DNA of 64,000 nucleotides from Shinella yambaruensis (GTDB lineage: Bacteria; Pseudomonadota; Alphaproteobacteria; Rhizobiales; Rhizobiaceae), in the NCBI RefSeq assembly GCF_022899355.1, contig NZ_JALJCK010000016.1, positions 1 through 64,000 of the forward strand, in the 5' to 3' direction. The notes under the pieces are model-generated. The model was given only the letters and a program-made list of their open reading frames with translations. It was not told the origin of the DNA and ran no database searches. Of the stretch, positions 1,251 to 29,602 are shown piece after piece. The position numbers and the translations under genes are program-made. Position 1 is the stretch's first letter; each line of letters starts with the position of its first letter.

Positions 1251-1254
1251 GGCC

Positions 1255-3248: not shown

Positions 3249-3310
3249 GTCCGTTCCCTTTGTTGTGGTTGTCGTGCTCGTGACGGTTACGATGTCGAAT
3301 GCGGTCACTT

Positions 3311-3350
3311 TTATCAAACCGAAATAACTGATCCGTATTTCAGAAAAATT
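3311..3350. promoter_or_regulatory. Candidate LysR-type operator upstream of the betaine transporter
   Basis: This stretch contains TTATCAAA and TTTCAGAAAAATT (3338-3350), with a small dyad CTGA...TCAG between 3328 and 3343. The divergent LysR/aldehyde-dehydrogenase promoter at 9122-9168 contains TTATCAAT and TTTCAGAAGAATT, a 12 of 13 match. The site lies between the Ldh_2 stop and the binding-protein start, where the transporter promoter must be. I infer shared control by the LysR protein encoded at 9177. Confidence 0.4.
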
Positions 3351-4355: not shown

Positions 4356-4365
4356 GGAAATATCC

Positions 4366-7621: not shown

Positions 7622-7625
7622 GGCC

Positions 7626-9077: not shown

Positions 9078-9121
9078 TTGCATCTCCATTCCGTTCGACC
9101 GAAAAATCCGCCAGCGCCGCG

Positions 9122-9168
9122 CTTCAATCAAGCAGATATTTCTGTTATCAATTTCAGAAGAATTGAAG
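9122..9168. promoter_or_regulatory. Nested dyad in the divergent LysR/aldehyde-dehydrogenase promoter
   Basis: The outer arms are CTTCAAT (9122-9128) and ATTGAAG (9162-9168). The inner arms are TTCTG (9140-9144) and CAGAA (9155-9159) with a ten-base spacer. The position between two divergent genes and the dyad geometry fit a LysR recognition site. Elements of it recur upstream of the betaine transporter at 3311-3350. Confidence 0.5.
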
Positions 9169-9176
9169 TGAGCGCC

Positions 9177-12419: not shown

Positions 12420-12431
12420 CGGAGATTTGAC

Positions 12432-12701
12432 ATGGCAAGCCTCGTGCCCTGCCCGCATTGCGGGCCAAGACCGAAAGAGGAATTCACCATCAAGGGTGCG
12501 GCGCTGCCACGCCCCGCGCCAACCGCCGATCCGGCAGAGTGGTTCGACTATGTCTATCTGCGCGACAATCCGCGCGGGTCCTATGCGGAATACTGGCACC
12601 ACACCGCCGGCTGCCGCCGATGGCTGGTCGTCAGCCGCGACACCATCACCCACCAGGTCGCCGCCTGCCGCGATGCCGCAGCGCAAGGACACGCCGCATG
12701 A
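12432..12701 (+). CDS. soxD: Sarcosine oxidase delta subunit
   Basis: An 89-residue zinc-binding subunit. The N-terminal CPHCG and the later EYWHHTAGCRRWLVV supply the Cys-Cys...His-Cys ligand set of SoxD. Length and motifs are those of the family. It starts at ATG 12432 behind GGAGATTTGAC. Its stop overlaps the soxA start (ATGA), so the two are translationally coupled. The subunit is structural within the alpha-beta-gamma-delta complex. Confidence 0.95.
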   Translation: MASLVPCPHCGPRPKEEFTIKGAALPRPAPTADPAEWFDYVYLRDNPRGSYAEYWHHTAGCRRWLVVSRDTITHQVAACRDAAAQGHAA

Positions 12702-15661: not shown

Positions 15662-16181
15662 CCTTCGCCCCTTCCCGGCGCTTGCCGCCCGCAAGCCTCT
15701 CGCCTCGTCGCGCATCCGCCTGTCGGCGCTTCCCGAAGGCACGATCCTGCAAATGATCGCGGGACCGCAAACGCCTGGCCCGGTGGATGGCCTCGAACGG
15801 CTTGCCGCCAAGACCGGGCTTGCGCTGCGGGCGATCTCGCCCGGCCAGTGGCTGCTCGTCGGTGACCGGCCGACCCCCTATCCGCAGGCATGCCGCCTGC
15901 TCGCGGCACTGGAGCCGCATGCCAGCGGCATCGATCAGAGCCATGGCCGGGTGCGCCTGCATCTGGAAGGGCCGATGGCCGCGACGGTGCTGTCCAAGGG
16001 CACGGCCGTCGACCTTCATCCGTCCGCCTTTGCGCCGGGGCATACGGCCGCGACCCTTGTCGGCCATGTCTCGGTCCACCTCACGCGCCTCGATGCGGAG
16101 GCCTTCGAGATCACCGTCCTGCGTGGATTCGCCGAAGCCCTGTGGGACGACCTCGCGCTTATGTGCGCGGAATTCCTCTAG
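15654..16181 (+). CDS. soxG: Sarcosine oxidase gamma subunit
   Basis: A 175-residue SoxG-family protein, the smallest catalytically silent partner that helps assemble the heterotetramer. Typical segments are RIRLSALPEGTILQMIAG, ISPGQWLLVG and VDLHPSAFAPGHTAATLVGH, with C-terminal RGFAEALWDDLALMCAEFL. The start at 15654 overlaps soxA by eight bases. Its TAG stop shares the CTAG tetranucleotide 16178-16181 with the stop of the convergent hydrolase gene. Confidence 0.94.
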   Translation: MPDLRPFPALAARKPLASSRIRLSALPEGTILQMIAGPQTPGPVDGLERLAAKTGLALRAISPGQWLLVGDRPTPYPQACRLLAALEPHASGIDQSHGRVRLHLEGPMAATVLSKGTAVDLHPSAFAPGHTAATLVGHVSVHLTRLDAEAFEITVLRGFAEALWDDLALMCAEFL

Positions 16182-17128
16182 CCTGCGGATCCGGCGGCGA
16201 GCCTCGTCGTTTCGCGGACGATCCCGTCGAAAGCGCGCCTGGCCCGCAGGGAAAGACCGCGGGCACGCACATAGCCGTGCGGAAGGGCTGCGCCAGCCAG
16301 CAGCAATGCCGTACCGCCAGCCGCGCCGATCGCCCGGCAATAGGCTTCTCCCTCGCAGGCCAGCGGATCGTATTCCGCGATGAAGACGACCGTCGGGGGC
16401 AGGCCGGAAAAATCACCGGCTGCGAGCGGGCTGAAGCGCGGGTCGTCATAGGGCGGCGCGCCGCCAGCCCGCGCCGCATCATAGGCCCTGACATCGTCAT
16501 GGGAGAGCAAGGGGGCATGCGCATGCCGCTCATGGCTCTCGCCGATCCAGGCTGCGGACATCGCCGGATAGATCAGAAGCTGGCCGACCGCCGGCCGCCT
16601 TGCGCCCTTCATGGCGTGGCAGAGGCAAGCCGCGATATTGCCCCCGGCGGATTCCCCCATGACGAGAAGAGGCGCGGCGAAGTGCCGGCCGGCCCACCGG
16701 AAGGCGCACACGGCATCCTCGAACGGCGCCGGATGACGGTGTTCGGGCGCCAGCCGATAGTCGACCGAGACGACGGACAGGCCGGTCCTTGCGCAGAGTT
16801 CGGTGCAAACATCGTCGTGGCTTTCGAGGCCGCCCAGAATGAACCCGCCGCCATGGAAGTAGAGAACGACCGGCCGATCCGGCCGATAATCCGCACCGGT
16901 CCGGTACTCCCGGACGGCGACGCTGTGCCCGCAATCCTCGGCTCGACGATCCGTGCGGCTCACGCCGTCGGGATGCGGCTGGCGCAGGGCACGGCACATG
17001 CGGTCATAGATCCTGCGGTTCTCGCCGACCGGCAAGGCGAGCGCATCCGGCGGATAGAACGTGTTGACCGTGTCCACATAGGCCTGCAGGTCGGGATCGA
17101 GTCGATAATCCATCTCGGGTCTCGGCAT
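16178..17128 (-). CDS. Alpha/beta hydrolase of the hormone-sensitive-lipase (esterase) family
   Basis: A 316-residue soluble esterase. The oxyanion motif HGGGF (near 92), nucleophile motif GESAGG (near 158), acid in AEYDPL (near 250) and His in LPHGYV (near 283) give a complete triad. The closest families cleave short acyl esters; no natural substrate can be named. It follows the second Osm-type binding protein after a strong hairpin on the same strand, so it may be the distal, weakly expressed end of the quaternary-amine operon. It could equally be an independent gene. Confidence 0.85.
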   Translation of the reverse strand: MPRPEMDYRLDPDLQAYVDTVNTFYPPDALALPVGENRRIYDRMCRALRQPHPDGVSRTDRRAEDCGHSVAVREYRTGADYRPDRPVVLYFHGGGFILGGLESHDDVCTELCARTGLSVVSVDYRLAPEHRHPAPFEDAVCAFRWAGRHFAAPLLVMGESAGGNIAACLCHAMKGARRPAVGQLLIYPAMSAAWIGESHERHAHAPLLSHDDVRAYDAARAGGAPPYDDPRFSPLAAGDFSGLPPTVVFIAEYDPLACEGEAYCRAIGAAGGTALLLAGAALPHGYVRARGLSLRARRAFDGIVRETTRLAAGSAG

Positions 17129-17140
17129 AGACGGGAAAGA

Positions 17141-17170
17141 GCCGCGCTGACCTTGGAACGTCAGCGCGGC
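17141..17170 (-). terminator. Perfect 11-bp stem-loop after the binding-protein gene
   Basis: GCCGCGCTGAC (17141-17151) and GTCAGCGCGGC (17160-17170) form an 11-bp perfect stem with an eight-base loop. On the minus strand it is followed by TCTTTCCC, a weak U-tract. It lies between the binding-protein stop and the esterase start, so it acts either as a leaky terminator or as an mRNA 3' barrier. Confidence 0.6.
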
Positions 17171-17201
17171 AAGCGGGCCGGACAGGGGTCCGACAGGGGA
17201 G

Positions 17202-18104
17202 CTAGAGGCCGTTCGACGCCAGGAATGCGGCTGCCACCTCTTCGATCGACTTCTTCCGCACGTCGATCTCGCCGTTCAACTGCTGCATGGTCGCGTCGTC
17301 CAGTTTGGCGGAAAGCTGATCGAGGAGTTCGCCAAGCCTGGGATTGGCTTCCAGGACATCGCTCCGGATCGTCGGCACCAGCGCATAGTCCGGGAAGAAA
17401 TGCCGATCGTCGTCGAGCAGGACGAGGTCCATGGCGGCGATCCGGCCATCCGTCGCGGCAACGACCGCAAGATCGACGTCCCCGTTCTGAAGGGCGGGAA
17501 AGACCAGCCCGATTTCCATCGGCCGGATATTCCTCCGGCCCGCCTCAAATCCGTAGGTTTCCTGGAGGCCGAGCAACCCGTCCTGCCGCTTGGGAAACTC
17601 CGCGGTCGTTGCCATCACCGGATCCTTGCCGGCATTGTAGGCGGCAGCCAGGTCCGACAGGCTCGCCATTCCGTCGGTCTTCGGATTGTCCCTGCGGATC
17701 GCAAGCGCATAGGTGTTGTTGGCGCGCGACGGCGAAAGCCAGGTGATGCCGCGCTCGGCATCCTTTTCCTTGACGATCCTGTAGGTTTCGTCCGGTGTCA
17801 GGCGATCGGTGATCTTGTTGAAGTTGACGAGCGCCGTGCCGGTATATTCCCAGTAGACGTCGACCTCGCCGTTCTCCAAGGCGGCGCGGACGATGTTGGT
17901 GCCCATTCCGTCCCGCTTGCTCACCGTGAAGCCGTTCTTCTGCAGGAGCTGCGTCGTCATTTCGGCAAGCAGGAACTGCTCCGTGAAATCCTTGCCGCCG
18001 ACCTTGATGTCCTGCGCCGCGGCCGCGCCTGCGGCGGTCATGGCAAGGCCGGCGACCAGTACGGCCTGAATGGCAGTCTTCATGTTATCGATGATGCGCA
18101 TCAT
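17202..18104 (-). CDS. Quaternary-amine ABC transporter substrate-binding protein (OpuAC/OsmX type), second copy
   Basis: A 300-residue periplasmic protein with a signal peptide (TAIQAVLVAGLAMTAAGAAA). It carries the family motifs VGGKDFTEQFLLAEM, DGMGTNIVRAALENGEVD, YWEYTGTALV and TTAEFPKRQDGLLGL. It is a clear paralogue of the protein at 20398-21288, and the motifs align without gaps. It has no permease or ATPase of its own. I infer that it delivers a second ligand to the same membrane complex. The start at 18104 is supported by AAGGGAACGAC. It lies 25 bases after the Ldh_2 gene and is followed by a hairpin. Confidence 0.86.
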   Translation of the reverse strand: MMRIIDNMKTAIQAVLVAGLAMTAAGAAAAQDIKVGGKDFTEQFLLAEMTTQLLQKNGFTVSKRDGMGTNIVRAALENGEVDVYWEYTGTALVNFNKITDRLTPDETYRIVKEKDAERGITWLSPSRANNTYALAIRRDNPKTDGMASLSDLAAAYNAGKDPVMATTAEFPKRQDGLLGLQETYGFEAGRRNIRPMEIGLVFPALQNGDVDLAVVAATDGRIAAMDLVLLDDDRHFFPDYALVPTIRSDVLEANPRLGELLDQLSAKLDDATMQQLNGEIDVRKKSIEEVAAAFLASNGL

Positions 18105-18129
18105 GTCGTTCCCTTCGTTCTGTCGTTGT

Positions 18130-19137
18130 TCAACTCACTTGAGGGTCTGCCGCGTCGTTCGATGCCGAAAGCCGCACCGCCGTCTCCCACAGAGCGGCAT
18201 CGACGCGGACAGGCTGGCTTCTCCCGGATCGCCCGGGAAGCCTCGCCCCTGCGGCCTCATGGGCCGCGGCCAGCCGGCCGATGGCCTCGGGGAAGTGACC
18301 GGCGGAGAAATGGCCGGGATCGATCGCGATCAGGAACTGCCCGACGCACGGCGGGCCGCCCTCATCGTTGCCGAAAGGGCTCGCCTCCGTGCTGAGGACC
18401 GAACCGGTCAGCGCGGCGGCCAGGATTTCGACAAGGAGGGCGATATTGGCGCCCTTCCGGCCGCCGGCCGGCAGGAGCGAGCCTTCCAGGCCGGTGGCCG
18501 CATCGGTCGTCGGCCGTCCATGCCTGTCCTGTGCCCAGCCCGTCGGGATTGCCTCGCCGCGATTGCGGCGGAGGATCATCTCCGTCTTGGTGACGGCGCT
18601 CATGCTTTGGTCGACGACAATGGGGGGAGCTTCCGCCGAAGGCACGGCGAAGGCGAGCGGGTTCGTTCCGAAGAGTGCCCGCGTCGCACCGGGCGGCGCG
18701 ACGGAGGCCGGTGCATTCGACAGGCAAAGACCGATCAGGCCGTTTTCCGCGAGCGGGAGGACGTGATGGGCAAGCGCGAGACAATTATAGGAGTTGCGCA
18801 CCGCCATCGCCCCGATGCCGGCCCGGCGGGCCGCGTCGACCAAGGCCGGCGTACCGGCCGCGATGGCGGGATGCGCGAAGCCGCATCGCGCATCGACCGT
18901 CACCGTGGCGCCGCGTGGCGCCATATCGGGAACGGCCTTTCCATCCACCTTGCCGATCGTCAGATGCCGGCAGAAGATCGGCAGGTAGTAGAGGCCGCAG
19001 ACACGGTTTCCGCCGGCCTCCGCCCTGGCGATCGCCTGCGCCACGGCGCGCGCGTTGTCGACGGTAGCACCATGCTTCTCCAGCGCGGCAAGGCAGACCG
19101 CCTCGATCGTTTCGCGGGTCGTCTCGACCGTGCTCAT
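18130..19137 (-). CDS. Ldh_2-family oxidoreductase with altered catalytic motif
   Basis: A 335-residue paralogue of the protein at 3351-4355. Shared segments include CGFAHPAI, RNSYNCLALAHHV, LFGTNPLAFAVP and GGRKGANIALLVEILAAAL. The conserved Ser-His pair of the active site (RSHGLL in the paralogue, His47) is replaced here by Val-Cys (NRVCGLYYL, Cys47). The codon at 18999-18997 is TGC, so this is read directly. Loss of the catalytic His suggests altered chemistry or loss of dehydrogenase activity. It overlaps the enolase-superfamily gene by four bases (ATGA) and precedes the second binding protein. Confidence 0.8.
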   Translation of the reverse strand: MSTVETTRETIEAVCLAALEKHGATVDNARAVAQAIARAEAGGNRVCGLYYLPIFCRHLTIGKVDGKAVPDMAPRGATVTVDARCGFAHPAIAAGTPALVDAARRAGIGAMAVRNSYNCLALAHHVLPLAENGLIGLCLSNAPASVAPPGATRALFGTNPLAFAVPSAEAPPIVVDQSMSAVTKTEMILRRNRGEAIPTGWAQDRHGRPTTDAATGLEGSLLPAGGRKGANIALLVEILAAALTGSVLSTEASPFGNDEGGPPCVGQFLIAIDPGHFSAGHFPEAIGRLAAAHEAAGARLPGRSGRSQPVRVDAALWETAVRLSASNDAADPQVS

Positions 19138-20258
19138 CGGCCGGCCGCGTAGCGTCTTTCGCCCGCGGCGACGAGGTCGTCGGCGAGGGTGAAACCCAGC
19201 CCCGGCATCTTGAAGGCATCGAGCCAGCCGGTCCTCGGGGCAAGGCCCGGGGAGGACACGATATCCTTCTCGACGAGCTGCCACATGATCTGGTTGCCGT
19301 CGTCGAGATTGGGGATGGCAAGCCCGATGTGATGTTCGGCGCAGGTGGTGATGCCGGTGGTGAAGGACGAATGGATGCAGATCTTCAGCCCGGCGGATTC
19401 CGCCACCGCCGCCGCCTTCATCATCGGCTGTATGCCGCCGATCTCGCGCGGGCCGATGCAGATCATGTCGGCGGCCCGCTGGCGGCAGATCTCGTAGACG
19501 TCGTAGAGCGTGAAAGCGGCCTGGTCCGCCACGATCGGAATGCCGACTTTCTCGCGCACATGCGCCATGGCGGGAATGCTCCAGCTCACCGTCGGCTGCT
19601 CGATGAACTCGATGTCGTATTTCTCCAGCTTGCGGCACATGTTGATCGCGTCATGCACGCTCCAGCCCTCGTTCGCATCGAGGCGCAGGCGCGCATCGCC
19701 GATCTCGCGGCGGACCGCGGCGGTGATTTCGAGGTCCAGCTTCTCGCCGCGGCCGACCTTGAGATAGAAGACCCGCTCGCCATTGGCGTGGCCGGCAGCG
19801 GCGTCGCGCGCAAGCTCCTCGGCCGTCTCGCCCTGGAGGAAATAGAAGTAGCCGACCGCCTTGCGGTGCGCACCGCCGAGCAGCTGGTGGACGGGAAGGC
19901 CGGCAAGCTTGCCCTGGAGGTCCCACATGGCCATGTCGATACCGGAGAACATCTGGTTGGCGGCCCGCATGATGTTCGCGCCGTGCCCGAGATATTCCCG
20001 GTGGAAGATGCGCGCGATGAGCGGGGCCACATCATGCGGCGAATGGCCGACGAGATGGCTGGCGAGGCGCTGGAGGATGGCCGCCGTGCCGGTCTGGTCC
20101 GGTGCGACCGTGCACTCGCCGATACCGACGGTGCCGTCATCCGCCTCGATCTCGATGAGATTGACGGCAAAGGATTCCCGAATGCCGTAGGACCAGTGGT
20201 AGGGCTGCTTCAAAGGCAGGACCAGCGGACGGATGCGGATGCTTGATATCTTGACCAT
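19134..20258 (-). CDS. Enolase-superfamily enzyme (mandelate racemase/muconate lactonizing type)
   Basis: A 374-residue protein with an N-terminal capping domain and a (beta/alpha)7-beta barrel. The predicted Mg ligands are Asp194 (LRLDANEGW), Glu220 (EFIEQP) and Asp245 (VADQAAF). Lys167 (FYLKVGRGE) sits on the second barrel strand and His296 (ICIHSSF) near the end. The usual acid/base Lys or His-Asp partner on the sixth strand is not obvious (CIGPREIGG). A racemase, epimerase or dehydratase of an amino-acid derivative is likely; the family includes hydroxyproline-betaine epimerase. The start at 20258 removes a non-conserved extension. It sits between two quaternary-amine binding proteins. 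Confidence 0.82.
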   Translation of the reverse strand: MVKISSIRIRPLVLPLKQPYHWSYGIRESFAVNLIEIEADDGTVGIGECTVAPDQTGTAAILQRLASHLVGHSPHDVAPLIARIFHREYLGHGANIMRAANQMFSGIDMAMWDLQGKLAGLPVHQLLGGAHRKAVGYFYFLQGETAEELARDAAAGHANGERVFYLKVGRGEKLDLEITAAVRREIGDARLRLDANEGWSVHDAINMCRKLEKYDIEFIEQPTVSWSIPAMAHVREKVGIPIVADQAAFTLYDVYEICRQRAADMICIGPREIGGIQPMMKAAAVAESAGLKICIHSSFTTGITTCAEHHIGLAIPNLDDGNQIMWQLVEKDIVSSPGLAPRTGWLDAFKMPGLGFTLADDLVAAGERRYAAGR

Positions 20259-20339
20259 TCCCGGGATTCCTCGAAACGACGGCCGGCATTGCCCGGCCTC
20301 CTGCATGCGGCGGCCGGCTTCCGGCACGCCTCCTCCCCT

Positions 20340-20364
20340 CCCGCCTGCAGGACCTGCAGGCGGG
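20340..20364 (-). promoter_or_regulatory. Perfect 11-bp intercistronic hairpin
   Basis: CCCGCCTGCAG (20340-20350), loop GAC, CTGCAGGCGGG (20354-20364). It follows the binding-protein gene by 33 bases and precedes the enolase-superfamily gene. No U-tract follows on the minus strand, so mRNA stabilisation of the binding-protein message is more likely than termination. Confidence 0.6.
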
Positions 20365-20397
20365 CGAGACTGATGATGAGACGCGAAAAGCGCCGGC

Positions 20398-21288
20398 TTA
20401 CATGCCGAGCGACTTCAGGTAGTCGGCGGCAACGGTCTCGATGGTCTTCTTCTCGACGTCGACCTCGCTGTTCAAACGCTGCATCGTGGCGTCGTCGAGC
20501 TTCGTCGAGATCGCTTCGAGCGCGTCCTTGAGATCGGGATGCTCGTCGAGCACCTCCTTGCGCACGACGGGAGTCAGTGCATAGTTCGGGAAGAAGCCCT
20601 TGTCGTCCTTCAGCACCTTCAGGCCGAGGGCGGCGATCTGGCCATCGGTCGCCTGTGCGGCGATCGTATCGAGATCGCCGTTGGCGAGCGCGTTGTAGGC
20701 GAGGCCGAGATCCATCGGCCGGACATTGGCGCGGCCCGCCTCGAACCCGTAGACCTCCTGCAGGCCGATCAGGCCGTCCGGACGCTTCGGAAACTCGGCG
20801 GTCGTGCCCATGAGGATCGGCTTGCCGTCGTTATAGGCCTTGGCAAGGTCGGAGATCGTCTCCAGGCCTTCCGTCTTGGCATTGCCCGGCTTGACGACAT
20901 AGGCATAGGTGTTGTTCGCCGTGGACGGCGCCAGCCAGACAAGGCCCTTTTCGCCATCCAGCTGCTTGACGCGGTTGTAGGTCTCCTCCGGCGAAAGCCG
21001 CTCCGTCACCTTGTTGAAGGTGATGAGCGACGTGCCCGTATATTCCCAGTAGAGGTCCACCTCGCCGTTCTCCAGCGCGGCGCGGACGATCTTGGTGCCC
21101 ATGCCGTCCTTCTTGTCGACGGTGTAGCCCTTGCTCCCGAGGAGCTGCTTGGTGATTTCGGCGATGATCAGCTGTTCGGTGAAGTTCTTCCCGCCGACGG
21201 TGATCGTCGCAGCGAAGGCGGACGTCGCGGCAAGAGCGATGGCCGCCGCCGACAAAAGGGTCTTGGCAAGTTTCGGTACGAAGGTCAT
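20398..21288 (-). CDS. Quaternary-amine ABC transporter substrate-binding protein (OpuAC/OsmX type)
   Basis: A 296-residue periplasmic protein. The signal peptide AKTLLSAAAIALAATSAFAA is followed by VGGKNFTEQLIIAEITKQLL, DGMGTKIVRAALENGEVDLY, WEYTGTSLITFNKV and TTAEFPKRPDGLIGLQEVYG, the diagnostic blocks of the OpuCC/OsmF/OsmX group. The start at 21288 lies 23 bases after the permease stop. It is the fourth gene of the permease-ATPase-permease-binding protein set. Ligands of this group are glycine betaine, carnitine, choline or related compounds. Confidence 0.9.
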   Translation of the reverse strand: MTFVPKLAKTLLSAAAIALAATSAFAATITVGGKNFTEQLIIAEITKQLLGSKGYTVDKKDGMGTKIVRAALENGEVDLYWEYTGTSLITFNKVTERLSPEETYNRVKQLDGEKGLVWLAPSTANNTYAYVVKPGNAKTEGLETISDLAKAYNDGKPILMGTTAEFPKRPDGLIGLQEVYGFEAGRANVRPMDLGLAYNALANGDLDTIAAQATDGQIAALGLKVLKDDKGFFPNYALTPVVRKEVLDEHPDLKDALEAISTKLDDATMQRLNSEVDVEKKTIETVAADYLKSLGM

Positions 21289-21311
21289 TTCAGTTCCTCT
21301 CTCTTTTCTTG

Positions 21312-22070
21312 TTATCGCAACGGATTTATCCCTCGTGGAACGAGGTGGTACTGGATCTGGCCGAAAACGAAGTCGACCAGGACCGCAATCAATGCCGTGG
21401 GAATGGCCCCGGCCATCATCATCGGGAGTTCGTCCAGCGCGATCCCGGTGAAGATCAGTTCGCCAAGCCCGCCCGCGCCGATCAGAAAGACCAGCGGCGC
21501 CGAGCCGACGCAGATCGCGAGCGCCGTGCGGATGCCGCCGAAGATGACGAAGAGGGCGTTTGGAAGCTCGACACGCCACAGGACCTGCCGCGGCGTCATG
21601 CCCATGCCGGTTGCCGCCTCCACGAGGTGGGGCGGCACCGCGCGCAGGCCGGCATAGGTGTTGCGCACGATCGGAAGAAGGGTGGCGGCCCACAGGCCGA
21701 ACACCGCGGGCACCGTGCCGATGCCGAGCAGCGTCATGGAAAGCGCAAGGATCGCCAGCGTCGGCACGGTGCTGCCGATGTTGAAGACCTGCATCGCCGC
21801 CTCGGAAATGGCGCGGAAGGCAGGCCGGGAGAGCACGATGCCCACAGGCACGGCCGTGAGGATGGCAAGTCCACCGGCCCAGGCGACGAGCTCCAGATGC
21901 TGTACGGCAAGGTAGGAAATGTCGTCGGAATAGGTGAGGATCTCCTCCGCCATGCCGCTCGACCACAGCCAGGCGACCGCGCCCGCCAGCACGACCAGCA
22001 CGAGCACCGGGGCGAGCGCGGGGCGGCGGCGTTCCTGTGGCGGCGTGGTCAGGATGGCGGGAGCGCTCAT
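21312..22070 (-). CDS. Quaternary-amine ABC transporter permease (OpuC/Osm type)
   Basis: A 252-residue membrane protein with one BPD_transp_1 domain and about six helices. The EAA-like loop reads LVEAATGMGMTPRQVLWRVE. Typical flanking motifs are NIGSTVPTLAILALSMTLLG and FLIGAGGLGELIFTGIALDE. The start at 22070 overlaps the ATPase stop by four bases. The longer frame running to 23276 is a shadow of the ATPase. It pairs with the permease at 23179-23841 to form a heterodimeric channel. Confidence 0.9.
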   Translation of the reverse strand: MSAPAILTTPPQERRRPALAPVLVLVVLAGAVAWLWSSGMAEEILTYSDDISYLAVQHLELVAWAGGLAILTAVPVGIVLSRPAFRAISEAAMQVFNIGSTVPTLAILALSMTLLGIGTVPAVFGLWAATLLPIVRNTYAGLRAVPPHLVEAATGMGMTPRQVLWRVELPNALFVIFGGIRTALAICVGSAPLVFLIGAGGLGELIFTGIALDELPMMMAGAIPTALIAVLVDFVFGQIQYHLVPRGINPLR

Positions 22071-23182
22071 GCGGTCTCCCCGTGGCCGAGATTGTGCACG
22101 ATGGAACGATAGCTCATCACGCCGGCCAGCCTGCCACCCTCGTCGACGCAGGGCAGCAGGGGCATGTCGTGGGCGAACATCAGCGACACCGCGTGCCGCA
22201 GGTCGCCGCTGACCGGCACGGCGCCCTTTACGGGTTCCGCGTGGTCGGCGACCGCACCGGAGCGCGCGCCCGCGACCTGCGCGCTCAGAAGGGACTGTGG
22301 CACACCCTCCGCGTCGAGCACAAAGGCGGCGGCGCTGCCCGACGACCGCATGCGTTCCAGGGCGCTCTCGACCGAATCCGAGTTCTGGACCGTTATGAAA
22401 TCGGTCTGCATGGCATTCCGCACCGGGATGAGCCTGAGGCGCTTGAGCGCCCGGTCGGAGCCGAGGAAATCCTCGATGAAGCTGTTGGCGGGGCGGGCGA
22501 GCAGATCGTCGGGCGTTGCATACTGTTCGAGTTTTCCACCACGGAAGATCGCGATCCTGTCCGCCATCTTCACCGCCTCGTCGAGATCGTGCGAGACGAA
22601 GATGATCGTCTTGCGGATCGTCTTCTGCATCTTCAGGAATTCTTCCTGGATGACCTCGCGGTTTATGGGATCGATGGCGCCGAACGGCTCGTCCATCAGC
22701 ATGACCGGCGGGTCCGCCGCGAGCGCGCGCAGGACGCCGACGCGCTGCTGCTGGCCGCCCGAAAGCTCCTTCGGATAGCGCTTGAGAAAGAGGTCGGGCT
22801 GAAGGCCCACCAGCTCCAGAAGCTCCTTGGCACGCATGCGCGACTTCCGGCGGTCCCAGCCGAGAAGATCGGGCACGACACAGATGTTCTCCTCGATCGT
22901 CTTGTTCGGAAACAGGCCGATCTGCTGGATCACATAGCCGATGGAGCGCCGAAGCTCGATCGCATCGACGGTGCCGGTGTCCTTGCCGTCGATGAAGACC
23001 TTGCCGCTGGTCGGCTGGATAAGCCGGTTGATCATCTTCATCGTCGTCGTCTTGCCGCAACCCGACGGACCGAGCAGCACGCAGATCTCGCCGGTGGGAA
23101 GGTCGAGGTTGACATTGTCGACCGCCACGAAGGGATTGTGCGCGGGGCCGAAGTGCTTCGTCAGGTTCTCGAGCCGGATCAT
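22067..23182 (-). CDS. Quaternary-amine ABC transporter ATP-binding protein with CBS domains (OpuCA type)
   Basis: A 371-residue ATPase. Walker A is LLGPSGCGKTTTMKMINRLI (near 36), the Q-loop YVIQQIGLFPN, the signature ELSGGQQQR (near 140), Walker B VMLMDEPFGAIDPI and the switch VSHDLDEA. The C-terminal ~120 residues (from TDFITVQNSDSVESALERM) form a CBS pair, which in OpuA/OpuC senses ionic strength or nucleotides. It overlaps both neighbouring permease genes by four bases, giving tight translational coupling. Confidence 0.92.
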   Translation of the reverse strand: MIRLENLTKHFGPAHNPFVAVDNVNLDLPTGEICVLLGPSGCGKTTTMKMINRLIQPTSGKVFIDGKDTGTVDAIELRRSIGYVIQQIGLFPNKTIEENICVVPDLLGWDRRKSRMRAKELLELVGLQPDLFLKRYPKELSGGQQQRVGVLRALAADPPVMLMDEPFGAIDPINREVIQEEFLKMQKTIRKTIIFVSHDLDEAVKMADRIAIFRGGKLEQYATPDDLLARPANSFIEDFLGSDRALKRLRLIPVRNAMQTDFITVQNSDSVESALERMRSSGSAAAFVLDAEGVPQSLLSAQVAGARSGAVADHAEPVKGAVPVSGDLRHAVSLMFAHDMPLLPCVDEGGRLAGVMSYRSIVHNLGHGETA

Positions 23183-23841
23183 TGCGTGACGTCCCCCTGG
23201 ATGCCGCGTGACGTGAGGAGGCGCTGCACGAGCGCCAGGAAAAGGTCGGCGGCGATTGCCAGCAGCGAGACCGCAAGCGCGCCCGTCACCAGCTGGCGGG
23301 GATCGGACTGGCTGATGCCCCGCGAGATGAAGGTGCCGAGTCCGCCCGCTCCGATATAGGCCGCAATCGCCGTCACGCCGATGTTCATGACGACGGCGGT
23401 GCGCACGCCCGCCATGATGACCGGTATGGCGAGCGGGATCTCGACCTGCCGAAGGCGTTGCCAGGTGCTCATTCCCATGCCCTTGGCCGCCTCGCGCAGC
23501 GCCGGATCGACATTGGTGATGGCGGTGTAGGTGTTGCGGATGATGGGAAGCTGGGAATAGAGCACGACGGCCACGACGGCGGGCACATAGCCGATGCCGT
23601 GCCCGATCGGCGACAGGAGCGGGATCATCAGGCCGAACAGGGCGATCGAGGGAACGGTGATCATCATCGACGCAAGATAGAGAACGGTATCGGCCGTGCT
23701 CTTCGACTGCGTGATGGCAATGCCGATCGGCACCGCCGTGGCGACCGCGATGCCGACGGCCAGGAAGACGATCGAGATATGCTCGATCGCGCGCGCGCCG
23801 ATGATGTCCAGATTGTCGATGATGAACCGGACGATCTCCAT
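23179..23841 (-). CDS. Quaternary-amine ABC transporter permease (OpuC/Osm type)
   Basis: A 220-residue membrane protein. It has an EAA-type loop (ALREAAKGMGMSTWQRLRQ) and the typical AAYIGAGGLGTFISRGIS segment. The start at 23841 lies 24 bases after the isochorismatase-family gene. It is the first transporter gene in the set and the partner of the permease at 21312-22070. Confidence 0.9.
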   Translation of the reverse strand: MEIVRFIIDNLDIIGARAIEHISIVFLAVGIAVATAVPIGIAITQSKSTADTVLYLASMMITVPSIALFGLMIPLLSPIGHGIGYVPAVVAVVLYSQLPIIRNTYTAITNVDPALREAAKGMGMSTWQRLRQVEIPLAIPVIMAGVRTAVVMNIGVTAIAAYIGAGGLGTFISRGISQSDPRQLVTGALAVSLLAIAADLFLALVQRLLTSRGIQGDVTQ

Positions 23842-23865
23842 TCGCTGCGGCCTGCCTTTCCTTGA

Positions 23866-24546
23866 CTAGAGTTGCCCGTAGATTTCGGCGGCATTCTCAA
23901 ACGTGAAGCGCAGGGGCACGGATCCCTCGATCTGCCATGCCTCGACCGTATCGCCGTCCATGAGGGCGCAGGCGGCCTGCGTATCGACGACCGCGCCGCC
24001 ATAGAGGCGGTTCGCAAGGTTGAGGATGCCCGTCTGGTGCATCGCAAGGCCGCCGCTGCCGCAGGCGTCCTTGACGAGCAGGACATGCAGGCCGAGATTG
24101 ATCGCGTCCTTGACCGTCGCGTCGACGCAGGCCTCGGTCCACACGCCGGCGACCACCAGCCATTCCACGCCGCGCTCGCGCAGTTCCGCGATGAGCGGAC
24201 TTTTGCCGAAGGCGCTCGCCTCGTTCTTGACGAGCAGTCGCTCCGACGCCCGCGGAGCGACCTCGGGACAGATCGCCGTCAGCGGATCGTCCTTGTCGCT
24301 GAATGCGGAACGCCCGTCCGGTCCCGTCGGATGGAACGGGCGGGCATGGTCGGCGAGATCGACGATGTAGGCACAGTGGAAGACCGGAATGCCGTTGCGC
24401 CGCGCCGCCGCCTGGAGGCGGGCGGCATTGCGAAGGACGGTGCCGTATCCTTCCACGAGATAGCGCTCGTCATGGCGATGCTCCTCCTGGAGGTCGATGA
24501 AGAGACCCGCAACCTTCGCATGTTCGATCCGCAACGGCTTCCTCAT
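23866..24546 (-). CDS. Isochorismatase-family cysteine hydrolase
   Basis: A 226-residue soluble hydrolase. The triad is complete: Asp18 (LFIDLQEEH), Lys107 (LLVKNEASAF) and Cys140 (VWTEACVDAT), with the cis-peptide region VAGVWTE. The family includes N-carbamoylsarcosine amidohydrolase, nicotinamidase and other amidases; an amide or carbamoyl derivative of a methylated amine would suit this operon. The ATG at 24546 overlaps the M24 stop (TGATG) and has GGAG five bases upstream; a TTG one codon earlier is less likely. Confidence 0.87.
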   Translation of the reverse strand: MRKPLRIEHAKVAGLFIDLQEEHRHDERYLVEGYGTVLRNAARLQAAARRNGIPVFHCAYIVDLADHARPFHPTGPDGRSAFSDKDDPLTAICPEVAPRASERLLVKNEASAFGKSPLIAELRERGVEWLVVAGVWTEACVDATVKDAINLGLHVLLVKDACGSGGLAMHQTGILNLANRLYGGAVVDTQAACALMDGDTVEAWQIEGSVPLRFTFENAAEIYGQL

Positions 24547-25850
24547 CAAATCTCCCCACTCAGGAATTCATCCTCATAGGGAAAGCGCGACAGCAGCTCC
24601 GTGCCGGTTTCCGTGATCAGGATCTCGTCTTCGAGCTTCACGCCCTCACGGCCGCCCTTTTCGCCGATATAGCTCTCGACGGAGACGACCATACCGGGCA
24701 CGAGATGGCCGTCGCGGCCATAGGTCTCGTAGTCGATCGCATGGGCGATGAACGGCGTCTCGCCGTGCATGCCGACGCCGTGCATCACCGACGTGTAACG
24801 CTGATCGACGAAGCGATCGGGTATCTTCCATGCCTTTTCGGCGATCTCGCGGAAGGCCATGCCCGGCTTGACGATATCGATATTGTGCCGAACCTGTTCG
24901 TAGGCCATCCGGTAGAGCGATTTCTGGTAGGGCGTCGGCTTGCCGGGGCCGCAGCGGAAGGTGCGCGAGAAATCGGAATAGTAGCCGTAGCAGCCGATCG
25001 TATCGGTATCGAGGGCGACCAGTTCGCCGGGTCGGATCTTGCGCCCGCTCGCCTCGTTGAACCAGGGATTGGTGCGCTGTCCGGAACTGAGAAGGCGCGT
25101 CTCGATGAACTCGCCACCCTGCCGGATGACCTCCTGATACATGATCGCGAAAAGCTCGTTCTCCGAAACGCCCGGCTTGATCGCCTCGCGAACGGCGGCA
25201 ACCGCCGCTTCGGCACCGGCCATCGAGACCTGAAGGCACTTGACCTCCTCCGGCGTCTTGACGGCCCTGACGGCAAGGATCTCGCCCTGGCAGTCCCTGA
25301 CCTCGCAGCCGCGCTTTTCGAGCGCGAGCGCCTGAAGGTGGCTGCAGCGGTCCATGCCGAGCTTCATCGAGCCGCCGCCGTGCTGCTTGAGCAGCTCCGT
25401 GATTTCGTCGGCGAACGGCCCGGCGGTCTCGTCGTCCTTGCCGGAAACCGAGGACCAGACGAGCTTGGACGGGCGGGCCTCGTCGATCGTGTCGAGCACC
25501 ATCGAGACATGATAGCTCTGCGGGTATTCGAAAAGGACGATCGGACCTTCCGTGGGAATGAAGAAATAACGCGTCGAGTTGCGCAGGAAATATCCGAACA
25601 TGTTGCGCGATCCCGTCGCGTAGCGCTGGTTGTAGGGATCGAAAAGCACCACGGCGCCGTAACCGGCCGCGCGCATCCAGTCGCGAAGCTTCCTCAGCCG
25701 CCCCTTGCGCAGCGCATCCGCATCGATGAACGACGGCTCCGTGTCGGAAAGCCACATGCCGCCGGCCGGATCGGCTGCCGCCGGATGGCGCATGCGGTCC
25801 TTGAAATCCACGTCTTCCACGCTGTCGGGATCGAATACAACAATGCTCAT
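24546..25850 (-). CDS. M24-family (creatinase/Xaa-Pro peptidase fold) protein resembling DMSP lyase DddP
   Basis: A 434-residue pita-bread-fold protein. Metal ligands are visible at Asp281 and Asp283 (ALDTDTIG), Asp293 (YYSDFSRTF), His357 (VMHGVGMHG), Glu392 (SVESYIG) and Glu407 (KLEDEIL). Long stretches (FDPYNQRYATGS, IETRLLSSGQRTNPWF) match my memory of DddP better than creatinase or ectoine hydrolase. The position aligning with the proposed catalytic Asp of DddP (MHGVGLCDEW) is Gly363 here, so DMSP cleavage is doubtful. Hydrolysis or elimination of another onium compound is possible. The start at 25850 is preceded by GGAGAGCCCC. Confidence 0.83.
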   Translation of the reverse strand: MSIVVFDPDSVEDVDFKDRMRHPAAADPAGGMWLSDTEPSFIDADALRKGRLRKLRDWMRAAGYGAVVLFDPYNQRYATGSRNMFGYFLRNSTRYFFIPTEGPIVLFEYPQSYHVSMVLDTIDEARPSKLVWSSVSGKDDETAGPFADEITELLKQHGGGSMKLGMDRCSHLQALALEKRGCEVRDCQGEILAVRAVKTPEEVKCLQVSMAGAEAAVAAVREAIKPGVSENELFAIMYQEVIRQGGEFIETRLLSSGQRTNPWFNEASGRKIRPGELVALDTDTIGCYGYYSDFSRTFRCGPGKPTPYQKSLYRMAYEQVRHNIDIVKPGMAFREIAEKAWKIPDRFVDQRYTSVMHGVGMHGETPFIAHAIDYETYGRDGHLVPGMVVSVESYIGEKGGREGVKLEDEILITETGTELLSRFPYEDEFLSGEI

Positions 25851-25941
25851 GGGGCTCTCCTTTTCCAAGAGAATGGAGAAGGACCGGAGCACGCAATTGC
25901 GCGAACTCCGCAGATTCTATGCCGAAATCCGCACCCGCCCA

Positions 25942-26934
25942 TTATTTCAGTCCCGCGATTGCACGCGGCGCCTCACCTGCCCGCGAGATGCGGCGGCGCA
26001 CGCTGTGCGGCACATAGCCAAACCGCTGCTTGAAGGCCCGGGAGAAGGCGGCCGCATTGCCGAAACCGCAGGCGACGGCGACCTCATTCACCGGCAGGCT
26101 GGAATGCGTCAGCATGTCTGCGGCCCGGCCGAGCCTCAGATTGCGGTAATAGGCATTGGGCGCCGTCCCGAGCTCGGCCTTGAAGGAGCGCTCAAGCTTG
26201 TCGGACGAGACATTGAGGCGACGCGCCAGATCCTCGATCCGCAGCACGTCCTCGATGGCGTCCTCCATCATCGCCACGGCGGAGAGCACGAGGTCGTCGC
26301 GAATGCCGCTGCGGATGCGCAATGTCAGCAGCCGTCGGTCGGCGTCGGGCCGCAACGGACTGTGCATGTACCAGCCGGCGACGCCGTCGGCGAGGTCTTC
26401 GCCATAGTCGCGCCGGATCATCTCCAGCATCATGTCGAGACTGCCGATCCCGCCGACGGACGTGAAGCGGCGGCGGTCGATGACGAAGAGGTCGGAGCGC
26501 ATGTCGAGATGCGGGAAAGCCTCCTGGAACGCAGGCTGGCTGGTCCAGTGCAGCGTGCAGGCATGACCGTCGAGCAGCCCCTTGCGCGCGAGGAAGAAGG
26601 CTGCGTCGGCGATCGCGCCAAGCTCGGCCCCGGCGCGGAGGTTCTTGCGGATCCACGCCATCTCCTCGTCGGCGACGAGATGCTCGGCATCGCCGCCGGA
26701 ACACACGACGATCCGGTCGACCTCCGGCGCGCGGCGGACATGGAAGTCCGGCTCGATGCCGATCCCGTTCGACGCCTTGATCCTTTCACCGGCCGCAACG
26801 GTGATCCAGGAATAGCATTGCCTGCCGGAGAGCGTGTTCGCCGCACGCAGGGGCTCGATGATGGAGCTGAAGGCCATCAGCGGGAAGTTCGGAAATATCA
26901 GAACCGCAAAGCGGATCGGTTCGGACCCTTTCAC
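25942..26934 (-). CDS. GlxA-type transcriptional regulator (DJ-1/PfpI plus AraC domains)
   Basis: A 330-residue regulator with an N-terminal DJ-1/PfpI-like domain (FAVLIFPNFPLMAFSSIIEP) and a C-terminal AraC HTH (LARRLNVSSDKLERSFKAEL, VAVACGFGNAAAFSRAFKQR). The start is taken as GTG 26934, 17 bases after the MttB-family stop and eight bases after GGAG; the open frame extends upstream into MttB. Encoded inside the operon, it is likely an autoregulated activator responding to a quaternary amine or its demethylation product, as GbdR does. Confidence 0.87.
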   Translation of the reverse strand: MKGSEPIRFAVLIFPNFPLMAFSSIIEPLRAANTLSGRQCYSWITVAAGERIKASNGIGIEPDFHVRRAPEVDRIVVCSGGDAEHLVADEEMAWIRKNLRAGAELGAIADAAFFLARKGLLDGHACTLHWTSQPAFQEAFPHLDMRSDLFVIDRRRFTSVGGIGSLDMMLEMIRRDYGEDLADGVAGWYMHSPLRPDADRRLLTLRIRSGIRDDLVLSAVAMMEDAIEDVLRIEDLARRLNVSSDKLERSFKAELGTAPNAYYRNLRLGRAADMLTHSSLPVNEVAVACGFGNAAAFSRAFKQRFGYVPHSVRRRISRAGEAPRAIAGLK

Positions 26935-26950
26935 CGGCTGTTCTCCAAGC

Positions 26951-28486
26951 TTATGGCTCCCCTGCCCCGATCTCCTCGCGGCGCCGGACGATATAGGCGT
27001 CGAGCTCCTCGCGGATGGCCGGATCGAGCGCCGGCTCCTCGTATTCCCGCAAGGCCTGCTGCCAGACGTCGGTCGCGCGTTCCAGCGCATCGCGACCGCC
27101 GGCCTCCTGCCAGCTGCCGTAGTTCTGCCAGTTGGAAAGGATCGGCTGGTAGAAGGCCGTCTCGTATCGCGCCATCGTGTGTTCGGAGCCGAAGAAATGT
27201 CCGCCGGCCGGCACCGCCTTGATGGCTTCGAAGCCGAGATCGTCCTCGGAGAAGGGCATGGGCGCGAGGAAGCCCATCATGTTCTGCAGGATCTCGACGT
27301 CGAGCACGAGTTTCTCGTAGGAGGCCGTCAGCCCGCCTTCGAGCCAGCCCGCCGCGTGATAGATGAGGTTCGCGCCGCCGAGCACCGCTCCCCAGGTCGC
27401 CATCCCCGTCTCGTAGGCCGCCTGAAGATCGACGGTATTGGAGGCATTGGCATTCGACGTGCGATAGGGCAGCCCGTATCGCCGGGCGAGCTGGCCCGCG
27501 ATGATGTTCGCCTTGGTGTTCTCGGGCGTGCCGAAGGCCGGCGCACCGGAGCGCATGTCCACATTGGACGTGAACGCGCCGTACATGACCGGCGTGCCGG
27601 GATTGACCAGCTGGGCAAGCGTAACGCCGAACAGCGCTTCGGCATTCTGCTGGCAGAGCGCCGCCGCCAGCGTCACCGGCGTCATGGCGCCCATGAGGGT
27701 GAACGGCGTGATGGTCACCGGCTGCCCATGCTCGGCCATGGCGATGAGCCCGTCCGCCATCGCATCATCGAAGAGCCGGGGCGAGTTGACGGAGATGATC
27801 GTGATGACACCAGGCGACCGGCGCATCTCCTCGACGCCGATGCCCCGCGCGATCGCCATCATGTTGATGCCGTCGACAGCGCGCCCCCGGCCGATGGCGG
27901 TGCAGTGGAAGCTGAGATCGCTGAGCGTGATATTCGCGTTGTAGGTATCGAGGTGGCGCGAATTGGCCGGCAGCTCGATCGGCGCGCAGACCTGGTTCCC
28001 GAGGATATGGATCGCGTTGAAGTAATGGGCCAGCCGCGTGAAGTTCCGGTAGTCGGCCAGATTGCCCTGCCGCCGGCCGTTGACCCGGTCGTGCACGTTC
28101 GGCGGGCCGGCGACGAGGCCGAAGGCCATGGTGTTGCCGCCGATCGTCAGGCGTTTTTCCGGATTGCGGCTGGTGAGCGTGAAGGCGGACGGCGTGGTGG
28201 CCAGCGCCGCCGCGACGATGGTCTCGTCGATGCGGATCGTCAGGTTCTCGCGGTCGACGATGGCGCCCGCCCTCTCGAACAGCGCCATCGCCTTTTCGCT
28301 CATCACGCGGATGCCGATCTCGGAGAGAATGCGCATCGAATTGCGGTGAAGCGCCTCGAGACGCTCCTCGTCGAGAAGCTGCATCGGAGGATAGGTGTTG
28401 ACGACCTCCTGCCACGGCAGCTGCGAAATCCCGCCGCCACCCCGGCCTGCCCGCGATCGCCGGCCGCCGCCGCGTCTGTCACTCAT
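26951..28486 (-). CDS. MttB-family (trimethylamine methyltransferase superfamily) protein without pyrrolysine
   Basis: A 511-residue TIM-barrel protein recognised from NTYPPMQLLDEERLEALHRN, AFGLVAGPPNVHD, LARRYGLPYRTSNANASNTV, YHAAGWLEGGL and FFGSEHTMARYE. The frame is uninterrupted by TAG, so it belongs to the non-pyrrolysine branch. Characterised members (MtgB, MtpB, MtcB) move a methyl group from glycine betaine, proline betaine or carnitine to a corrinoid protein. No corrinoid protein or methylcorrinoid:THF methyltransferase is encoded in this window. The start at 28486 (MSDRRGGGRRSRAG) leaves a Gly/Arg-rich tail. It heads the twelve-gene leftward run. Confidence 0.9.
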   Translation of the reverse strand: MSDRRGGGRRSRAGRGGGGISQLPWQEVVNTYPPMQLLDEERLEALHRNSMRILSEIGIRVMSEKAMALFERAGAIVDRENLTIRIDETIVAAALATTPSAFTLTSRNPEKRLTIGGNTMAFGLVAGPPNVHDRVNGRRQGNLADYRNFTRLAHYFNAIHILGNQVCAPIELPANSRHLDTYNANITLSDLSFHCTAIGRGRAVDGINMMAIARGIGVEEMRRSPGVITIISVNSPRLFDDAMADGLIAMAEHGQPVTITPFTLMGAMTPVTLAAALCQQNAEALFGVTLAQLVNPGTPVMYGAFTSNVDMRSGAPAFGTPENTKANIIAGQLARRYGLPYRTSNANASNTVDLQAAYETGMATWGAVLGGANLIYHAAGWLEGGLTASYEKLVLDVEILQNMMGFLAPMPFSEDDLGFEAIKAVPAGGHFFGSEHTMARYETAFYQPILSNWQNYGSWQEAGGRDALERATDVWQQALREYEEPALDPAIREELDAYIVRRREEIGAGEP

Positions 28487-28714
28487 CGAGAACTGCCTTT
28501 CACACGCTTGCATCCGCCGCAAGGGGGCAATGACGAGCCCTCGGCATCGGACATGCGTTTATGTTCCGCCTCCCTGGAACTATGGCCAATCCCGACCCGG
28601 TCTTCACACGATAAGTTCGGCGGCAATGGCCAAGAAAAACGATGTCATGGCGCATCCCGCACTTGCGCAGCGCGAAGGGACCGGATTAGCCTCGGGCAAA
28701 AAGGGGAATCCGCA

Positions 28715-29602
28715 ATGAAGCCGCCGCCGCCACTGAACTATATCCGTTCCTTCGAATGCTCCGCCCGGCACCTGAGTTTCACGGACGCGGCCAACGAACT
28801 GGGCTATACGCAGGCGGCGATCAGCAATCATGTGCGCGCGCTCGAACAGTATCTCGGCCGCCAGCTCTTCATCCGCTATCCGCGCAGCCTCAAGCTGACG
28901 GAAATGGGGGAGGCCTTTCTTCCCACGCTGCGCCAGGCGCTGAACCAGATCGATTTCGCGACGGAAGCCGTGCTCGCCTCGGCCCGCAACAAGACGGTCG
29001 TCATTTCCTGCCCTACCAGCCTTGCCGAAAACTGGCTGGCGAAGTGCGTCGCCGGCTTCAGCCGGAAACATCCCGAGGTGGAGATCCTCCTGCACGGCAC
29101 GATCTGGGAGGATTCGACGGAACAGATCGCCGATATCCTCATTTCCATCCGCCGCTTCGACAATATGCCGGCAAACGGCAGGCAGCTCTGGAACGACCGG
29201 CTCGTGCTTCTCTGCGCGCCCCAGCTCGTGCACGGGCAGAATGCGATCAGGACGCCGCAAGACGTCCTGACATCCAACTGGATCGCCGTGCATGGACGAC
29301 AGGAATTCTGGCAGGACATGGCCGATGCGCTCGGCATCGACGCCTCCGCGAACGACAAGCGGCTTTCCACCAACTCCACCAATATCGCGCTCGAAATGGC
29401 GGCAAGCGGCGCCGGCTGCATCGTGACCACCTGGTCGCTCGCCCGCATCTATGTCGACCGCGGCCTGCTCGTCGAGCCTTTCCAGACCCGCGCCAGGAGC
29501 GCGTGGAACTACTACCTCGCAGAAGGGCAGGCATCGAAAGGAACGACCGTCGCGAAGGTACGCGACTGGATCGTCGCCGAAGCGCAGACGGTGATCGGCT
29601 GA
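28715..29602 (+). CDS. LysR-family regulator (GcvA-like)
   Basis: A 295-residue protein with an N-terminal HTH (LNYIRSFECSARHLSFTDAA, NELGYTQAAISNHVRALE) and a LysR substrate domain (VVISCPTSLAENWLAKCVAG). The opening PPPPLNYIRSFECSARHLSF is typical of the GcvA subgroup that controls glycine-cleavage and related one-carbon genes. The start at 28715 is preceded by AAAAGGGGAATCC. It is divergent from the MttB operon (228-base gap) and lies upstream of the FAD-GcvT dehydrogenase, so it may regulate either or both. Confidence 0.9.
   Translation: MKPPPPLNYIRSFECSARHLSFTDAANELGYTQAAISNHVRALEQYLGRQLFIRYPRSLKLTEMGEAFLPTLRQALNQIDFATEAVLASARNKTVVISCPTSLAENWLAKCVAGFSRKHPEVEILLHGTIWEDSTEQIADILISIRRFDNMPANGRQLWNDRLVLLCAPQLVHGQNAIRTPQDVLTSNWIAVHGRQEFWQDMADALGIDASANDKRLSTNSTNIALEMAASGAGCIVTTWSLARIYVDRGLLVEPFQTRARSAWNYYLAEGQASKGTTVAKVRDWIVAEAQTVIG

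Follow-up and report, generated by a model that had tools for sequence, protein, structure and literature searches.

Gene content and limits of the locus

The 64,000-nucleotide stretch of Shinella yambaruensis DNA analysed here (contig NZ_JALJCK010000016.1; hereafter the window) carries a predicted quaternary-amine catabolic locus that includes an MttB-family methyltransferase, an M24 metallohydrolase and an OpuC-type ABC transporter. Twelve consecutive open reading frames, all on the minus strand, were confirmed between positions 16178 and 28486, and their Pfam assignments agreed with the families named in the initial annotation (Table 1). Four-base overlaps, described there as many, do occur, but at only four of the 11 junctions (M24/isochorismatase, permease/ATPase, ATPase/permease and MLE/Ldh_2), the remaining junctions having gaps of 16, 91, 24, 23, 139, 25 and 73 bp. 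The twelve genes stand as given, but the functional locus runs past 28486: a plus-strand LysR gene and a gene for a dimethylglycine dehydrogenase (DMGDH)-like flavoprotein (FADox), both missed initially, are conserved with the twelve-gene run.

Table 1. Coordinates of the genes and of the divergent promoter region at the locus.
Feature	Position	Strand	Basis
MttB-family (PF06253) non-pyrrolysine methyltransferase, 511 aa; predicted betaine:corrinoid methyltransferase	26951..28486	-	Pfam, TIGR02369, tree
GlxA/AraC-type activator; best NCBIfam model GbdR	25942..26934	-	276 bits, cut-off 480
M24 metallohydrolase, DddP-like subfamily	24546..25850	-	Metal ligands kept; DddP Asp377 equivalent is Gly363
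Isochorismatase-fold cysteine hydrolase	23866..24549	-	Asp19/Lys108/Cys141 kept
OpuC-type permease 1	23179..23841	-	Pfam (BPD permease)
OpuC-type ATPase with CBS domain	22067..23182	-	TIGR01186 proV, 351 bits, over cut-off of 327
OpuC-type permease 2	21312..22070	-	Pfam (BPD permease)
OpuAC-family binding protein 1 (SBP1)	20398..21288	-	Pfam
Enolase-superfamily (MR/MLE) enzyme, MLE	19134..20258	-	Pfam; about 93% to structure 2pgw
Ldh_2-family oxidoreductase	18130..19137	-	Closest structure 1wtj
OpuAC-family binding protein 2 (SBP2)	17202..18104	-	Pfam; not in Sinorhizobium version
HSL-family esterase (Abhydrolase_3)	16178..17128	-	Ser160/Asp254/His284 kept; not in Sinorhizobium version
Divergent promoter region	28487..28714	.	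Partly conserved with S. meliloti LMB1 (149/223 aligned bases)
LysR regulator, divergent, conserved with MttB	28715..29602	+	Domains, neighbourhood comparison
DAO-FAO_M-GCV_T protein (FADox), DMGDH-like, predicted second N-demethylase	29825..32245	+	Domains; structure 5l46

The methyltransferase matched PF06253 along profile positions 2–500 of 500 (695 bits, cut-off 25; E 3.3e-209) and scored 309 bits with TIGR02369, under the cut-off of 525; its frame is open, with no internal stop and no in-frame amber codon for pyrrolysine. The flavoprotein is closest to human DMGDH (structure 5l46; E 5.5e-194, residues 3–805 of 806), scores 650 bits as a mammalian dimethylglycine dehydrogenase versus 313 bits as a bacterial dimethylglycine oxidase, and keeps the flavin-His motif STWHA and the folate domain; by these sequence criteria 29825–32245 encodes a putative dimethylglycine dehydrogenase. 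The transporter has the components of an OpuC/OsmF system, namely OpuAC binding proteins, two permeases and a CBS-domain ATPase that exceeds the proV cut-off. By its equivalog score the GlxA activator is not GbdR and can only be called GbdR-like. SoxBDAG lies at about 11169–16181 in the window, with SoxB over its cut-off.

Conservation on plasmids and across Rhizobiales

A plasmid of Shinella sp. WSC3-e (427,952 bases) gave a 98.6% match across the whole window. In the plasmid collection, 118 records matched the window, of which 62 contained 80% or more of its length at a single site; Sinorhizobium accounted for 63 of the 118, and pSymA of Sinorhizobium meliloti 1021, which covers 84% of the window, was among the matching plasmids. 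The order of ten of the twelve genes (MttB to Ldh_2) and of the LysR and DMGDH-like genes is identical in Sinorhizobium megaplasmids, with protein identities of 77–97%. On the plasmid of S. meliloti LMB1 (79–97% identity), the genes read Ldh_2, MLE, SBP1, permease, ATPase, permease, isochorismatase, M24, GlxA and MttB, beyond which come the divergent LysR gene and then the FAD-dependent oxidoreductase gene, as in the window. MttB and GlxA are directly adjacent in Shinella and S. meliloti, with a spacing of 7–16 bp. Base changes between the window and LMB1 sit mostly at third codon positions in all 12 genes common to both (ten of the run, LysR and FADox), which shows that these genes are under selection as proteins. 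Searches by tblastn with the isochorismatase (E limit 1e-25; 65/66 records) and with MLE (E limit 1e-60; 65/67 records) found nearly the same Sinorhizobium and Shinella set.

M24 orthologs were found in 17 of 397 genomes of the order (E 1e-120 or better) and in 13 of 247 genomes of the family (E 1e-150 or better); with four genomes common to both samples, these make 26 different genomes. Besides the window, 21 M24 contexts were compared by tblastn, with G069, G209, G229 and G609 left out (G-numbers denote sampled genomes, L-numbers the genomic stretches compared; g57 and g215 are genus labels). The isochorismatase gene was present in 20 of the 21 contexts, GlxA in 19 (L119 is without it and L132 starts at M24), and the esterase gene in 17, or 18 counting a blastp label in L117. 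The permease-ATPase-permease set of OpuC was found in eight, MttB in five (in one of these at 59% identity), MLE in five, the DMGDH-like gene in four and Ldh_2 in two. GlxA, M24 and the isochorismatase, mostly with the esterase, form the near-invariant part (hereafter the core), which MttB, MLE and the transporter accompany in a subset only, and the twelve genes are a composite, most core contexts being without MttB, MLE or Ldh_2.

Contexts with MttB as well as MLE came from Shinella, Sinorhizobium, three g57 genomes, which belong to another family, and G604 (genus g215), of the same family as the window. All genes but Ldh_2 were present in the three g57 genomes, in the order FADox-LysR-MttB (86–87%)-GlxA-M24 (94%)-isochorismatase-OpuC-two binding proteins-esterase-MLE (88–89%). 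In G604, MttB, GlxA, the esterase, MLE and Ldh_2 form one operon and M24, the isochorismatase, OpuC and SBP1 a convergent one, with LysR and FADox divergent from MttB. Co-conservation across Rhizobiales, the check proposed in the initial annotation, thus showed that the set is not specific to this strain. MLE itself was rare, being found in seven of the 397 order genomes (E 1e-60 or better) and in three of the 247 family genomes, all three with M24; a relative in G096 was left out of the context comparison. In the three remaining sampled genomes of the genus to which the window belongs, no MttB, M24 or MLE was present at the thresholds used; the locus is therefore patchily distributed and may be an acquired one.

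Replacement of MttB by a Rieske/OYE (old yellow enzyme) set in g57 was ruled out, MttB lying directly beside GlxA there. GbcA/GbcB-like genes (below cut-offs) and genes for OYE-type flavoproteins are present in G198, G150 and G121 (g57) besides MttB, at 7–12 kb from MLE.

The promoter and terminator scan returned fewer candidates than in shuffled sequence, and the Rfam scan nothing above the gathering score. The gap between SBP1 and MLE (20259–20397) holds a GC-rich stem-loop that is kept in S. meliloti LMB1, where the gap has the same 139-base length; no terminator-like T-run was reported at this stem-loop by the terminator scan, and it is perhaps an mRNA-stabilising hairpin. Further away, positions 105–10000 encode a betaine-type ABC transporter, a second Ldh_2, a DUF3726 protein, a hypothetical protein, a membrane dipeptidase and an aldehyde dehydrogenase (gene names for this block and for SoxBDAG were taken from the annotation of the near-identical Shinella plasmid). 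This block, which we take to resemble the genes beside dgcA of Pseudomonas aeruginosa, is a second betaine-related island adjoining the twelve-gene locus.

MttB relatives, corrinoid machinery and catalytic residues

Using the best 80 of at least 593 confirmed MttB relatives, a quick tree of 86 rows grouped the window MttB with proteins of Sinorhizobium, Mesorhizobium and Rhodobacterales in a clade of 24 rows, separate from the paralog beside a corrinoid protein in the same genome; the paralogs form long branches and their exact place is unsure. An ortholog of the DMGDH-like protein (at least 72% identity) was present in the stretch of 16 of the 24 clade rows, the window included (some of the other stretches are short), and the full ten-gene set in one of the best 80 relatives (L025, Sinorhizobium medicae). 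Other neighbours in the clade include MmgE/PrpD, D-2-hydroxyacid dehydrogenase, amidohydrolase or hydantoinase, and sarcosine-oxidase-like genes, suggesting that the members of the clade may not all act on the same compound. Close orthologs in Mesorhizobium, Leisingera and others (L026–L031, L045, L131, L019–L021 and L033) are accompanied by MmgE/PrpD in most stretches and variously by a D-2-hydroxyacid dehydrogenase, HyuA/B, or an amidohydrolase directly after MttB; an FrhB-like protein near them was recognised by eye only. We know of no pathway with this set of MttB, MmgE/PrpD, D-2-hydroxyacid dehydrogenase, amidohydrolase and HyuA/B. A link to pyrimidine or hydantoin degradation through PreT/PreA-like genes (recognised by eye) near a 65% identical Mesorhizobium MttB was set aside, other genes lying between; the amidohydrolase gene directly after MttB in L026–L031 and L045 may still reflect such a link. 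Two Acidimicrobiales stretches (L067 and L100) carry a 65% identical MttB near gamma-butyrobetaine-dioxygenase-like, BKACE-like and carnitine-dehydrogenase-like genes, whose products all score below curated cut-offs; these genes may represent a route from gamma-butyrobetaine to dimethylglycine in Actinomycetota.

The initial annotation had stated that known betaine routes use Rieske or GcvT-type demethylases; a further route is known, MtgBCD, an aerobic MttB-family route of glycine-betaine demethylation in Ruegeria pomeroyi published in 2025, whose gene content is also reported for S. meliloti (PMC12478193). According to the same work, one corrinoid protein serves more than one partner, and the authors suggest that extra pfam06253 (MttB) paralogs serve other methylated compounds (PMC12478193). 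The genome studied here encodes five MttB and two PF02607 proteins. The corrinoid PF02607 protein at C1:95137-95355 lies close to the MttB paralog at C1:95814, and the same C1 stretch has genes for a pterin-binding methyltransferase that passes its NCBIfam cut-off and for AcsV/RamA-like and MetF-like proteins that do not reach theirs, so that corrinoid, pterin and putative reactivation proteins, as required by an MtgBCD-type route, are encoded elsewhere in the genome and not in the locus. Both systems belong to aerobic alphaproteobacteria, combine MttB, corrinoid, pterin, activase and MetF-like proteins, and have dimethylglycine and sarcosine demethylation downstream; unlike MtgBCD, the window MttB falls in another clade than the corrinoid-adjacent paralog and is accompanied by its own importer, hydrolases, MLE and Ldh_2.

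That M24 acts as DddP, a suggestion arising from the initial annotation, was not upheld. The M24 subfamily and six metal ligands (Asp281, Asp283, Asp293, His357, Glu392 and Glu407) are common to both, but the window protein scored 315 bits with the NCBIfam DddP model (cut-off 600), compared with 870 for the Loktanella and 850 for the Paracoccus yeei protein, and Gly363 stands at the position of the catalytic Asp, which we take to be Asp377 of DddP and its proposed base. A dimethylsulfoniopropionate (DMSP) lyase was ruled out on these two grounds. Gly occupies this position in seven of the eight rows of the window group (L118 is unreadable there), and Asp in DddP, in all 11 of the more distant MttB-linked M24 rows and in nine of ten further relatives, the tenth (L137) having Gly. 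A creatine-type route through M24 and the isochorismatase was likewise rejected, M24 being closest to DddP (247 bits) with creatinase far lower. The ten further relatives (34–43% identity) were chosen together with their regions; Rieske genes lie near six of them, four from Rhizobium (L138–L141), one from Caballeronia (L136) and one from Loktanella (L142). Annotated betaine transporters are found in L139–L141 and in the Pseudomonas region L135, where an MR/MLE gene is present as well, and L137 and L144 have neither a Rieske gene nor a betaine transporter. The MR/MLE proteins of L135 and L143 are only 27% identical to the window MLE. In L142 (Loktanella salsilacus) a DddP over the equivalog cut-off is found next to a GbcA-like Rieske set, and in L143 (Paracoccus yeei) a second one adjoins an MR/MLE enzyme and HyuA/B; betaine-catabolic M24 enzymes may have been the origin of the DMSP lyase family.

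The catalytic triads of the isochorismatase (18 aligned rows with the window; two of 20 gave none) and of the esterase (13 rows with the window) were kept in every aligned row. MLE is about 93% identical (349/374; 805 bits) to its closest structure, 2pgw, which was deposited as a muconate cycloisomerase, presumably originates from S. meliloti and has, to our knowledge, no assigned function. It keeps three metal ligands, Lys167 and His296, and has Tyr165-Leu-Lys167 instead of KxK and Gly269 instead of the opposing Lys, a dyad that we take to characterise HpbD-type epimerases. Structure 2pmq, presumably HpbD itself, scored only 82 bits, and an HpbD identity of MLE was ruled out by this rank and the missing KxK/opposing Lys. 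Clusters of the hydroxyproline-betaine 2-epimerase HpbD combine a betaine importer with MR/MLE and Ldh_2 enzymes and a Rieske protein; unlike these clusters, as we understand them, the window has an MLE lacking the two-lysine arrangement and MttB instead of Rieske. The structure closest to Ldh_2 is 1wtj, a delta1-piperideine-2-carboxylate reductase.

Predicted pathway and alternative explanations

Import, methyl transfer and the chemistry that follows are all represented among genes that occur together and are conserved beyond the strain, in agreement with the coherent quaternary-amine catabolic locus that had been proposed. We consider it fairly probable that this is a regulated betaine catabolic locus with OpuC import, demethylation by MttB and the DMGDH-like enzyme, and a hydrolase/epimerase-type module acting on the skeleton. 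Gene content, order, conservation and catalytic residues are read directly from the sequence, and from them we infer the following steps. OpuC would import a quaternary-ammonium compound that would also be the signal for both regulators, the GbdR-like GlxA activator and LysR. MttB would pass the first N-methyl group to the Co(I) corrinoid of a protein whose gene lies elsewhere in the genome, from which a separate pterin-binding methyltransferase would transfer it to tetrahydrofolate, and the DMGDH-like flavoenzyme would convert the second N-methyl group to methylene-tetrahydrofolate. The carbon-nitrogen skeleton would be opened, hydrolysed or changed in its stereochemistry by M24, the isochorismatase, the esterase, MR/MLE and Ldh_2. 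Probable substrates are a conjugate of glycine betaine or an amino-acid betaine of larger size than glycine betaine itself. Several observations weigh against this reading: a corrinoid protein was not found in the locus itself, SBP2 and the esterase are absent from the S. meliloti LMB1 version, MLE and Ldh_2 are rare in core contexts (5/21 and 2/21), MLE relatives at 64% (L112) and 47% (L113) identity lie in stretches without the core or MttB, and the transporter family alone leaves the ligand unfixed.

Two more specific substrates, each doubtful taken singly and about equal in our estimation, were weighed. If the compound were proline betaine or hydroxyproline betaine, its two N-methyl groups would be removed by MttB and the DMGDH-like enzyme, MLE would be a betaine epimerase and Ldh_2 a cyclic-imine reductase, in line with its nearest structure. 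Clusters of Rhizobium (L139–L141), among them those of Rhizobium leguminosarum and Rhizobium acidisoli, in which LysR, Rieske, reductase, M24, GlxA and ABC transporter genes follow one another, point in the same direction: they share with the window a GlxA regulator (GbdR-like, below cut-off, in L139), a DddP-like M24 (38–39% identity), a betaine ABC transporter and a predicted N-demethylase, here a GbcA-like Rieske oxygenase, and a 4-hydroxyproline epimerase is annotated in L139 (576 bits, cut-off 376) and L140. The L139 Rieske protein is, moreover, 77% identical to that of L110, which with its 97–100% relatives lies 7–12 kb from MLE in three g57 genomes. However, a fourth g57 genome (G087) has the Rieske gene on a different contig from the M24 core, and G000, G604 and G546 have none at E 1e-100. 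The Rhizobium clusters also differ from the window in having Rieske for MttB, a proline-racemase-type epimerase for MR/MLE and an M24 that retains the Asp, with no isochorismatase or esterase in the stretches shown; the MLE residues and its distance from 2pmq count against a betaine epimerase of the kind we associate with HpbD. If the demethylases instead act on glycine betaine, the hydrolases would free it from a conjugate and SoxBDAG would take sarcosine to glycine. The closeness of FADox to dimethylglycine dehydrogenases, the SoxB score and the 65% MttB on the two Acidimicrobiales contigs, near a carnitine-type route ending in glycine betaine, are consistent with this; yet the MttB paralog beside the corrinoid protein is the better glycine-betaine candidate, the Acidimicrobiales proteins fall below their cut-offs, and no conjugate is known to us whose release of glycine betaine would call for M24, isochorismatase and esterase at once. 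Neither substrate explains the isochorismatase and the esterase, for which proline betaine offers no obvious step.

It is rather unlikely that two independent modules merely adjoin each other, MttB, LysR and FADox serving demethylation and GlxA, M24, isochorismatase and esterase a substrate of their own. The coupling of MttB to the core is not obligatory, since MttB is missing from the stretch in 16 of the 21 core contexts (including L132, which starts at M24), a finding that also tells against the single-pathway reading; close MttB orthologs stand without the core in Mesorhizobium and Rhodobacterales, and G105 carries MttB and core on different contigs. Against this, MttB directly precedes GlxA in both Shinella and S. 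meliloti, another family has the same pairing, G604 has it in rearranged form, and distant M24 genes lie beside GbcA-like Rieske genes in five chosen regions (L136 and L138–L141). OpuC transporters often serve osmoprotection, and a locus for osmoprotectant uptake or scavenging without dedicated catabolism was also considered. SMa1462, an ABC-type glycine-betaine transporter whose place in this locus is only inferred, is listed with osmolyte genes in PMC3596328. Nevertheless, the enzyme genes are conserved, and M24, isochorismatase, esterase, MLE and FADox retain their catalytic residues, which makes this explanation highly improbable.

Read as a betaine catabolic locus, the genes would pair a B12-dependent first and a flavin/folate-dependent second demethylation with a hydrolase/epimerase-type module, a combination that appears to be new: our literature searches, with most subscription papers outside their coverage, found no description of this gene set, as the initial annotation had anticipated. 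On present evidence it is not a new kind of chemistry. More tentatively, an amino-acid betaine different from glycine betaine could be degraded here by a new B12-dependent pathway that operates aerobically, in which a dedicated MttB borrows shared corrinoid and folate machinery and M24, a metal hydrolase not assigned before, the cysteine hydrolase and MR/MLE perform a new skeleton cleavage. Aerobic alphaproteobacteria carry several MttB paralogs without assigned substrates, and the locus ties one of them to an importer, a second demethylase, regulators and five further enzymes, in a version present on the megaplasmids of the tractable S. meliloti. Assignment of the substrate could also give functions to the DddP-like M24 subfamily and to structure 2pgw, and the locus bears on how nodule bacteria may use the betaines of their host plants.

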